Assembly: GCF_026004115.1 (NCBI RefSeq)
Contig: NZ_BPIM01000001.1
Location: forward strand, 2,398,501-2,462,500
Direction of reading: 5' to 3'
Source of the DNA: Meiothermus sp.
Lineage (GTDB): Bacteria; Deinococcota; Deinococci; Deinococcales; Thermaceae
Length of the DNA: 64,000 bases
How positions within the stretch are numbered: position 1 is the stretch's first letter; every line of letters begins with the position of its first letter. This document shows positions 31,985 to 49,102 of this stretch, in pieces. The notes under the pieces are model-generated. The model saw only the letters and a list, made by a program, of their open reading frames with translations, was not told the origin of the DNA and searched no databases. The translations under genes were made by a program, and so were the position numbers.

Positions 31985-32143
31985 ATACCGGATTCAAAAA
32001 GACAGCTTACAAAACTAAAAACACCAGAGGCTGTCTTTTTGAATCCTAGAGCACACCCCTCCCTGTCGGTCGGCGAAGAAAGCGTCTCCCTTCGGTCGGG
32101 TTAGTTCGTCACCCTTCAGTGACGAACTAACCGAATCTGGTAT
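31985..32143 (+). mobile_element. MITE-like element, copy 1
   Basis: 159 bp with terminal inverted repeats ATACCGGATTC and GAATCTGGTAT. Module 1 is a perfect 16-bp hairpin (31990-32005 with 32031-32046, GGATTCAAAAAGACAG). Module 2 is GGTTAGTTCGTCA paired with TGACGAACTAACC (about 32098-32133). A linker with CCTAGAGCACACCCCTCC lies between. No coding capacity. Related copies at 43957, 48829 (inverted) and 61786 (partial). Confidence 0.85.
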
Positions 32144-41671: not shown

Positions 41672-41872
41672 GTTGAGGGTGGAGTGATTGCGTCTGGTGG
41701 TACCCTGAACAGAACGATGGTCGCCGGGATGGATAGCCATGTCTGTGAAGAGTGCGATCAATATAGCTCATCGGTTTGCTGGAATGTATACAAGACTCAT
41801 TTTGTATCCCGATTCAGTCTTTTCGTGCAGGTCTAAATTGGGTAGTTTCATGTCAAGGTACAATTGTCCCAA

Positions 41873-42430
41873 ATGGAAGCCAAGGTTTTGCTGGCTAAGC
41901 TGATAGATCGCACCGGGCTGCTCGAGCACCACGTGCATACGCTACGCAGGCTCGAGCCCTTGATGAGCCCCATGGCCTCAGAAATCGCCCTGGCTTTTTA
42001 CGACTACCTGGGGCGCGATGAGGAGATGCGGGCTATTTTGTGGGATGTCCCTGGGCGGGTTGAGCGCCTGTACCAGAGTTTTGCTGACTGGTACAGGGGC
42101 CTATTCTGTGGAAACTATGATGCCGAATACGCAGAGAAGCGTGCCCGGATTGGCCTGGTACATGCGGCTATTGGCGTCAAGCCCAGCTTTATCATGCCGG
42201 CTTTTGGCATTGTGCAAGAGCTTTCGCTCGAGCACCTGCGCAACACCCTGCGTTCACCCGAAATCTTTAGCGCAGTGGAAGCCTTTGAGAAGATCATGGC
42301 CATCGAGGCGGCCCTGATGCAGGATAGCTACATGCAGGCCATGGAGTACGGCTACCGCCTGGGGGTAGCTGCCGACCAGGAGAAAGCCCTGGTGGCGGGG
42401 GCCAGGGCCATGCTGGGAAAAACCAACTGA
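41873..42430 (+). CDS. Protoglobin-family protein, paralogue 1
   Basis: 185 residues, a stand-alone globin of the protoglobin/globin-coupled-sensor type. RIGLVHAAIGVKPSFIMPAF carries the probable proximal haem His; ALAFYDYLGRDEEM, FADWYRGLF and AFEKIMAIEAALMQDSY match its neighbour. No output domain. Probably binds O2, CO or NO. The ATG at 41873 aligns with the paralogue start and has TACAAT (41859-41864) eight bases upstream; a TTG at 41864 is less likely. An imperfectly placed inverted repeat, ATACAA-N8-TTGTAT (41788-41807), lies upstream. Confidence 0.85.
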   Translation: MEAKVLLAKLIDRTGLLEHHVHTLRRLEPLMSPMASEIALAFYDYLGRDEEMRAILWDVPGRVERLYQSFADWYRGLFCGNYDAEYAEKRARIGLVHAAIGVKPSFIMPAFGIVQELSLEHLRNTLRSPEIFSAVEAFEKIMAIEAALMQDSYMQAMEYGYRLGVAADQEKALVAGARAMLGKTN

Positions 42431-42573: not shown

Positions 42574-43125
42574 ATGAAGGCCGAAGAGCTGCTGCGAACC
42601 CTGGTGCGCCGCACAGGGCTGACCGAGCAGCACGTACAAACCCTGCGGAGCCTCGAGCCCATTGCTGGTCCCCTGGCTCCCGAGGTGGCCCTGGCCTTTT
42701 ATGATTATCTGGGACGCGACCCCGAGATGCACGAAATCCTGTGGGGTGTACCAGGCCGGGTCGAACGGCTATATCGCTCGTTTGCAGTCTGGTATCGGGA
42801 GCTTTTTTCAGGTCAGTTCGACGATGGGTATGCTCGCCGCCGGATTCAGATCGGGTTGGTGCATGCGCGGGTTGGTGTGCGTCCGGGGCACTTCATTCCC
42901 GCTGTGGGCATCGTGCAGGAGCTGACCCTCGAGCACCTGCGCAATGCCCTGCGGGGGGCTGATATTTTGGCAGCCATCACGGCCTTTGAAAAAATCATGG
43001 CCATTGAAATCGCCCTCATGCAAGAAAGCTATTTCAGCGCTCTTTGGGAAGGTCTCAAGCTGACCCAAAACGAGCAGGAGGCGCTGCGCGAAGGGGCGCG
43101 GGTGCTGCTCGAGCAAGCGCACTGA
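42574..43125 (+). CDS. Protoglobin-family protein, paralogue 2
   Basis: 183 residues, co-linear with paralogue 1 over the whole length: RTGL-xxHVxTLRxLEP, ALAFYDYLGRDPEM, VPGRVERLYRSFAVWY, IQIGLVHARVGVRP with the probable proximal His, and AFEKIMAIEIALMQESY. Stand-alone haem sensor or carrier candidate. TAGAAT (42561-42566) is seven bases before the ATG, so it has its own leaderless-type promoter. The 140-bp gap to paralogue 1 holds no gene. Confidence 0.87.
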   Translation: MKAEELLRTLVRRTGLTEQHVQTLRSLEPIAGPLAPEVALAFYDYLGRDPEMHEILWGVPGRVERLYRSFAVWYRELFSGQFDDGYARRRIQIGLVHARVGVRPGHFIPAVGIVQELTLEHLRNALRGADILAAITAFEKIMAIEIALMQESYFSALWEGLKLTQNEQEALREGARVLLEQAH

Positions 43126-43177
43126 AAAAACTTTCCGGCAGGGTGCAGGAATTGCTTAGTTACCTTACTATTGGGGC

Positions 43178-43957
43178 GTGATTCAGGCCATTTTGTTCGA
43201 CTTAGACGAGACCCTCATCCTCGACCACCCCGTCTCCCTGCACGCCTTGCGGAGCTGTGCTTTTTATGCCGCCTCCTGGTACAGCCTGGATATTCCGCAC
43301 CTTGTTCAGACGGCAGAAACCATGGCGGTGCGCCTGTGGAAGTCGTCTCCAGTTTTTGAATATACCCAGCGTATTGGCCATAGTGCGGGGGAAGGGCTAT
43401 GGGCGCGCTATGAGGTGCAAACCCACCCCGCATTGAAAACCCTGCACGACTGGGTACAAGATTTTCGTGTAGCTGTCTGGCGCGAGTCGTTAGAAGCACA
43501 GAATATTCACGACGATGCACTGTGCGAGGTGCTGGCTCACCGTTACCTTTCCGAGCGGCGCTTGTACCCACGCTATCCCGAGATTGACCCACTGCTGCAG
43601 GCCCTTTCGGGCTACAAACTGGGCATCGTGACCAATGGGGTGCCCGATTTGCAGCGCGAGAAACTCGAGGGCTTCGGGCTGCTCGGCCGTTTTCAGGCGG
43701 TAGCGGTCTCGGGTGAGCTCGATATTGGTAAGCCCCAGCGCGGCATTTTCGACCATATCTGCACGGAACTGGGCGTGGAGCCTTCAGCCTGCGTGATGGT
43801 CGGCGACAACCCCGAGCGGGACATTGCAGGTGCGGCCAATGCTGGCATGAAATCGGTCTGGGTGGAGCGCGGCTTCAAGCCCAAAGACCCCCAGCACCCC
43901 GCCGACCTCGAGGTCTCGAACCTGCTCGAAATGCTGCCCTGGCTGGAGGCGCAATGA
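43178..43957 (+). CDS. HAD superfamily hydrolase
   Basis: 259 residues. Motif I FDLDETLI with nucleophile and acid Asp, motif II IVTNG, Lys in IGKPQRGIF, motif IV VMVGDNPERDIAGAANAGMKSVWV. The all-helical cap between I and II is of the haloacid-dehalogenase/phosphoglycolate-phosphatase type. Probably a small-molecule phosphatase; substrate unknown. GTG start with TACTAT (43166-43171) six bases upstream. The last base of its TGA is the first base of MITE copy 2. Confidence 0.9.
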   Translation: MIQAILFDLDETLILDHPVSLHALRSCAFYAASWYSLDIPHLVQTAETMAVRLWKSSPVFEYTQRIGHSAGEGLWARYEVQTHPALKTLHDWVQDFRVAVWRESLEAQNIHDDALCEVLAHRYLSERRLYPRYPEIDPLLQALSGYKLGIVTNGVPDLQREKLEGFGLLGRFQAVAVSGELDIGKPQRGIFDHICTELGVEPSACVMVGDNPERDIAGAANAGMKSVWVERGFKPKDPQHPADLEVSNLLEMLPWLEAQ

Positions 43958-44082
43958 TACCGGATGCAAAAAGACAGTTCAAAAAACCAAAAACCCATAG
44001 GTTGTCTTTTTGAATCCTAGAGCACTCCCTTCGGTTGGGTTAGTTCGGCGCCGAAGGGTGACGAACTAACCCAATCTGGTAT
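43957..44082 (+). mobile_element. MITE-like element, copy 2
   Basis: 126 bp, same orientation as copy 1. Ends ATACCGGATGC and CAATCTGGTAT. Module 1 has near-perfect arms (GGATGCAAAAAGACAG with TTGTCTTTTTGAATCC); module 2 is GGTTAGTTCG-CGAACTAACC. The linker is shorter than in copy 1. It sits exactly between the HAD stop codon and the next gene, whose ATG uses its last two bases. Confidence 0.85.
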
Positions 44083-44320
44083 GGCATATCCAGAAGCCCA
44101 TCGGCATTCCGCCCGCCACCGCGCGGAGGTTTTGCAGAGCGAGCTGTGTGGCTGCTTCTACTGCCTGCGTATTTTTACCCCCAGCGAAATCGAAGAATGG
44201 GTGGATGAAGGCCAGACTGCGCTATGCCCCTATTGCGGCATGGATGCTGTGCTGGGCTCGGCTTCGGGTGTACATCTGAGCGAAGATTTCCTGAGCCAGA
44301 TGCGGGAGCGCTATTTCTAA
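44081..44320 (+). CDS. Small zinc-ribbon cytoplasmic protein
   Basis: 79 residues: HRAEVLQSELCGCFYCLRIFTPSEIEEW, then TALCPYCGMDAVLGSASG and DFLSQMRERYF. Cys pairs CFYC and CPYC suggest one structural zinc. It belongs to a widespread uncharacterised family often annotated only as cytoplasmic protein. Its ATG (44081) begins on the last two bases of MITE copy 2 and has no Shine-Dalgarno, so expression may depend on the element or on upstream transcription. Confidence 0.8.
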   Translation: MAYPEAHRHSARHRAEVLQSELCGCFYCLRIFTPSEIEEWVDEGQTALCPYCGMDAVLGSASGVHLSEDFLSQMRERYF

Positions 44321-44356
44321 TAACCCTGACATCCCACCAATATGCTCGACAGACGC

Positions 44357-48828: not shown

Positions 48829-49102
48829 ATACCAGATTCGGTTAGTTCGTCACCAAAGGGTGACGAACTAACCCGACCGAAGTTATCCGCGTAGCGGAGG
48901 GCGATACCGCCCCTTGGAAGTTATCCGCGTAGCGGAGGGCGATACCGCCCCTTGGAAGGGAGACGCTTTCTTCGCCGACCGACAGTGAAGGGCCATCGGC
49001 CCCCGGCTAGCGCCGGTACTCAAGGGAGGGGTGTGCTCTAGGATTCAAAAAGACAGCCTCTGGTGTTTTTGGTTTTGTAAACTGTCTTTTTGAATCCGGT
49101 AT
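48829..49102 (-). mobile_element. MITE-like element, copy 3 (inverted, enlarged)
   Basis: 274 bp in reverse orientation to copies 1 and 2. Ends ATACCAGATTC and GAATCCGGTAT. Module 2 (GGTTAGTTCGTCA with TGACGAACTAACC) comes first, module 1 (GGATTCAAAAAGACAG with CTGTCTTTTTGAATCC) last. The linker contains two perfect 38-bp tandem copies (48879-48916, 48917-48954) of a CCGCGTAGCGG-containing unit, then sequence like the linker of copy 1. Confidence 0.85.

Follow-up and report, generated by a model that had tools for sequence, protein, structure and literature searches.

A miniature inverted-repeat element inserted in a stop/start overlap of Meiothermus regenerates the downstream start codon

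The window analysed here, a 64,000-nucleotide stretch of a Meiothermus sp. genome (contig NZ_BPIM01000001.1, positions 2,398,501 to 2,462,500), contains two neighbouring forward-strand genes with a mobile element at their junction. The first (43178-43957, from the open reading frame listing, with the GTG start as listed) encodes a HAD-family hydrolase, whose product matches Pfam Hydrolase (4.4e-27) and NCBIfam TIGR02253 (7.5e-39, yet under that model's cut-off). Upstream of it lie two adjacent, similar open reading frames (41864-42430 and 42574-43125), the second of which matches Pfam Protoglobin. The downstream gene (44081-44320, supported by its orthologues) encodes a zinc-ribbon-like CxxC...CxxC protein of 79 aa; its reading frame is intact and both CxxC motifs are present. 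This small CxxC protein has no Pfam match at E 0.1, a single weak PDB match (E 0.022) and an NCBIfam YnfU-like match far under the cut-off.

The element is a miniature inverted-repeat element (MITE) of 124 bp (TACCGGATGC...CAATCTGGTA; 43958-44081, + strand) that we assign to family A. Its left terminal inverted repeat (TACCGGAT; 43958-43965, + strand) is complementary, bar one G-T pair, to the right one (TACCAGAT; 44074-44081, - strand), and the + strand of the right repeat ends with the A that opens the ATG at 44081. Fold prediction gives two hairpins, at 43962-44017 (arms 43962-43976 and 44003-44017) and 44035-44074 (arms 44035-44052 and 44057-44074), and the predicted fold (z-score -4.4) has the terminal repeats paired at its base. 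The terminal motif ATACCRGAT occurs six times in the window against 0.32 expected, and is thus not there by chance. Two further family A copies in the window, at 31986-32142 (157 bp) and 48830-49101 (272 bp), both carry internal inserts, the latter including two units of GAAGTTATCCGCGTAGCGGAGGGCGATACCGCCCCTTG.

Family A is short, multicopy and without coding capacity. In a DNA search of the 3.35-Mb genome that contains the window, the best 40 of 203 candidates were scored, and an exact end-to-end pattern search found 50 copies (control 0). The same genome holds 274 ends preceded by TNA (144 + 130; control 0), and therefore about 137 elements, of which 60 were parsed with their flanks after removal of entries starting with TCTAGG, which are internal false matches. 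A perfect 3-bp target site duplication flanks 44 of these 60 copies, and the duplicated target is TNA in 43 and CTA in one. Because the flanking duplication is TNA across copies, the element itself has TACCRGAT ends and reads TACC...GGTA; the preliminary description had given its ends as ATACC...GGTAT, which wrongly includes one target base on each side, and had taken 43957 as the first base, which belongs to the TGA target. The left target copy here is the HAD stop codon (TGA, 43955-43957) and the right copy is TGG (44082-44084, TGA with A to G), one substitution off a perfect duplication. TGC forms the right flank of two other copies in this genome, 1423246 and 1849613, each at a genuine TGA stop; these TGG and TGC flanks may reflect later substitution, the only explanation that we can offer.

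IS5-family elements of the IS1031 group use a TNA target, and the 3-bp TNA duplication is common to them and family A. Unlike those elements, family A could not be linked to a transposase: there are 18 PF01609 matches in the genome, and in the ten PF01609 stretches inspected no autonomous partner with family A terminal repeats was found. Paired family A ends were seen in two of the ten (L094 and L101), and these look like an insertion sequence nested inside a family A copy. Searches found no Rfam match within the window, no phages, and two plasmid records, one from Meiothermus and one from Allomeiothermus. One family A copy elsewhere in the genome (C1:1423246-1423369, L012) lies at the stop of a gene that we take, from its translation, to be patatin-like; a convergent frame, read in the same way as pyrD-like, enters that element, gains about 21 element-encoded residues and then stops.

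The state of the locus before insertion can be read from relatives. Orthologues of the small CxxC protein were found in nine of 41 genomes, all nine within the 18 genomes of the genus, and three of these relatives have empty sites, reading GGAGGCGCAATGAC in G002 and G005 and GGAGGCCTTATGAC in G012. In all three the genes share a 4-nt ATGA stop/start overlap, with the Shine-Dalgarno (SD) motif GGAGG 4 nt before the ATG. Relative to this arrangement, 127 bp were gained through the insertion and none lost. Placing TACC...GGTA into the TGA with duplication of the target gives CAATGA-TACC...GGTA-TGA, in which the stop is kept and A plus TG rebuilds the start. The start codon has thus been regenerated rather than donated, and the placement is real and exact: as first proposed, the HAD stop, the MITE and the ATG at 44081 follow one another without a spare base. 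The proposal that the terminal repeat supplies the AT of this codon holds for the A alone, T and G being the duplicated target. A further suggestion, that the element had replaced the native 5' region, was not upheld; nothing native was replaced, since the orthologues in G002, G005 and G012 start at the homologous ATG and the native SD is still present at 43945-43949, within the 3' end of the HAD gene. Comparison of these orthologues for a clearly different, downstream start likewise left the start at 44081 standing. The native ATG (43954-43956) is now orphaned and opens a 19-codon reading frame (MIPDAKRQFKKPKTHRLSF), which the native SD now serves and which reads into the MITE and stops at 44011-44013; it lies 127 nt from the regenerated ATG, placing this frame out of frame with the small CxxC gene. 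The net effect is that the start was parted from its ribosome-binding site, not that a new 5' region was donated.

The same outcome recurs at this locus and elsewhere. In G016 this TGA is occupied by another element, family B (135 bp, TACGCATTTCGG...GGTA), whose insertion duplicated the TGA perfectly and likewise rebuilt the ATG. Family B is also a TNA-targeting repeat; 23 of 29 parsed entries have perfect duplications, all of them TNA, although two of the parsed entries, those of 175 bp, appear to be false. Because G012, the sister of G016, and G002 are empty, the family A and family B hits at the locus are independent. The arms of the two families differ, but both contain CTCCCTTCGGTCGG in the middle and follow a similar plan of two hairpins, which suggests a related origin; in G016 one family B copy directly adjoins a family A end (L217). 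G015, a metagenome-assembled genome (MAG), has two further family A insertions that rebuild a start. One precedes an intact 304-aa frame, which we read as an ABC-transporter permease, in the order ATGA, family A, TGAAACGACAG, and the orthologues without the element (in the window's own genome, G002 and G003) read ATGAAACGA. The other regenerates the start of a 242-aa frame where G005 has GTG (L082). L209 and L231 are further family B candidates; L144 and L129 were left uncounted, as they have later in-frame Met codons.

We also considered whether such sites are preferred. Enrichment at stop codons was rejected: seven of the 60 copies lie at a convincing stop against about 5.5 expected, on a baseline of 35 of 381 non-disruptive TNA sites in the window (9.2%, from rough gene calls). 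A preference for ATGA was rejected as well, with the 77 TGA-target copies in the 18 genus genomes preceded by A in 13, C in 27, T in 19 and G in 18; a count of ATGA overlaps from greedy gene calls returned 0, which is useless because the starts were untrimmed. When the 60 family A copies were set against 64 entries for family B (39 from G007 and 25 from G016, a partial set given that a first look gave 105 and 43 candidates, respectively), two sites coincided exactly, the small CxxC locus and the patatin-like stop (L012, with L197 in G007), against an expectation of about 0.19 if there are roughly 20,000 sites, a figure scaled up from the window. These two pairs, one of them the starting locus, are only suggestive of an insertion hot spot. 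The site catalogue contains false family B entries (at least L082, L183 and L186, with GGG or GGA / AGC flanks), and its duplication counts were not used, family A copies outside the window's own genome having been picked by a TGA pattern.

What the insertion would mean for translation was approached through SD:anti-SD duplex energies, calculated with an anti-SD sequence that we assume for this organism. The orphaned left ATG and the starts in G002, G005 and G012 each give -9.3 kcal/mol, whereas the 20 nt before the regenerated ATG at 44081 give -2.1 kcal/mol, in agreement with the preliminary description, which saw no SD there. It also saw no leaderless -10 box before this ATG, and over 43100-44340 no sense-strand sigma-70-like promoter was found and the only site found reads the opposite way. 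The region from -15 to +12 around the ATG is mostly paired (mean unpaired probability 0.26), and the gap from the HAD stop exceeds 120 nt and is predicted to be structured. Overlapping ATGA pairs can be coupled by termination-reinitiation, and the empty site has the layout of one; in a study of E. coli and H. volcanii pairs, reinitiation was almost abolished at a gap of about 20 nt, and a 38-nt gap cut it by 80-90% or abolished it (PMC10666635). Weakened translation of the small CxxC gene is therefore likely, given the loss of SD energy (-2.1 versus -9.3) and the published effect of a gap of about 20 nt.

The distribution of this gene suggests that the genus can do without it. It has no match at E 1e-3 in nine of the 18 genus genomes, and is broken or partial in four of the nine that match (G003, G004, G013 and G015); the broken G013 gene has a third element about 20 nt inside it. 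In G016 the first CxxC motif has lost a cysteine (FYC to FYY). For the small CxxC gene, dN/dS was 0.028/0.080 between the window's own genome and G002 (9 nt differences, too few to reveal relaxed constraint on the own branch) and 0.027/0.062 between G012 and G016, against 0.010/0.076 and 0.014/0.194 for the HAD gene. The small CxxC protein evolves faster than the HAD protein, in pairs that each have one element-bearing member and few differences, so that an effect of the insertion is not isolated.

Taken together, these findings make it probable that a MITE with T...A ends and a 3-bp TNA target entered the TGA of an ATGA overlap, regenerating the start and leaving the SD behind. The ribosome-binding site remains upstream beside the orphaned native ATG, which reads into the element; the small CxxC gene would have lost its coupling to the HAD gene and be translated poorly, which the genus presumably tolerates because it can do without the gene. 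Several points count against this account: the right copy is TGG rather than TGA, which requires one later substitution to be assumed, the small CxxC frame is intact with both its motifs, the search for an autonomous partner found none, and the coupling study used other organisms (PMC10666635).

Alternatively, the element could provide a working start (leaderless, non-SD or from its own promoter), with the small CxxC gene expressed independently of the HAD gene. The frame is intact and the ATG kept, and the G015 permease-like gene, whose ATG follows the same element end, is intact too, so that such starts may work; the native upstream SDs of its orthologues are themselves weak (-4.4, -4.4 and -2.4), and a gene of this genus is therefore not necessarily silent for want of a strong SD. 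In Acinetobacter, the element MITEAba12 provides genes with start codons and gives rise to outward transcripts (PMC6382973). Yet the missing sense-strand promoter, the duplex energy and the paired initiation region described above all argue against a working start, and we regard it as unlikely.

Uncoupling is also to be preferred to two other readings. That the true start lies downstream, for example at the TTG at codon 18, leaving the ATG at 44081 irrelevant, is highly improbable: GGAGG does precede this TTG here and in G002 and G005, but the spacing is merely 2 nt, G012 has neither GGAGG nor TTG there, and codons 2-18 are gap-free in the alignment of all five full-length orthologues, and in a distant MAG homologue (L077) an ATG preceded by AGGAGG lies at a roughly equivalent position. 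It is hardly credible that the element RNA instead folds so as to bring the native GGAGG beside the regenerated AUG, with initiation crossing the element. The pairing of the terminal repeats at the base of the stable fold would leave SD and AUG flanking it, but the orphaned native ATG, at normal distance from GGAGG, would compete, and the stem takes in the A of the AUG.

Start codons supplied by MITEs have already been published. MITEAba12 is also a short non-autonomous element whose terminal repeat contributes the start codon of a neighbouring gene; in that report, the repeat codes for the initial four residues (MQQS), and the element has a 9-bp target (PMC6382973). In family A, unlike MITEAba12, one element base and the copy of a 3-bp target rebuild the native start, which is a variant of the published case. 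Our literature search found no paper on Meiothermus miniature inverted-repeat elements and none on an insertion sequence restoring a start codon through target duplication. Unlike ordinary ATGA coupled pairs, the pair described here is split by a mobile element with both frames kept.

Looking ahead, we tentatively propose that stop/start overlaps might offer TNA-targeting elements with T...A ends docking sites at which neither frame is broken. If so, insertion into the TGA of ATGA, GTGA or TTGA would keep the stop and always leave an ATG before the next gene, and such elements would repeatedly split coupled pairs with both frames intact, a general route for altering translation of the second gene. 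Two families of unlike sequence show the regenerated ATG at the same base. The rule would be an exact one, by which a mobile element enters an operon overlap, leaves both proteins undamaged and removes the ribosome-binding site. For annotation it carries a warning: the start codon would be called correctly with the usual upstream signals gone, and an intact-looking gene may be nearly silent.
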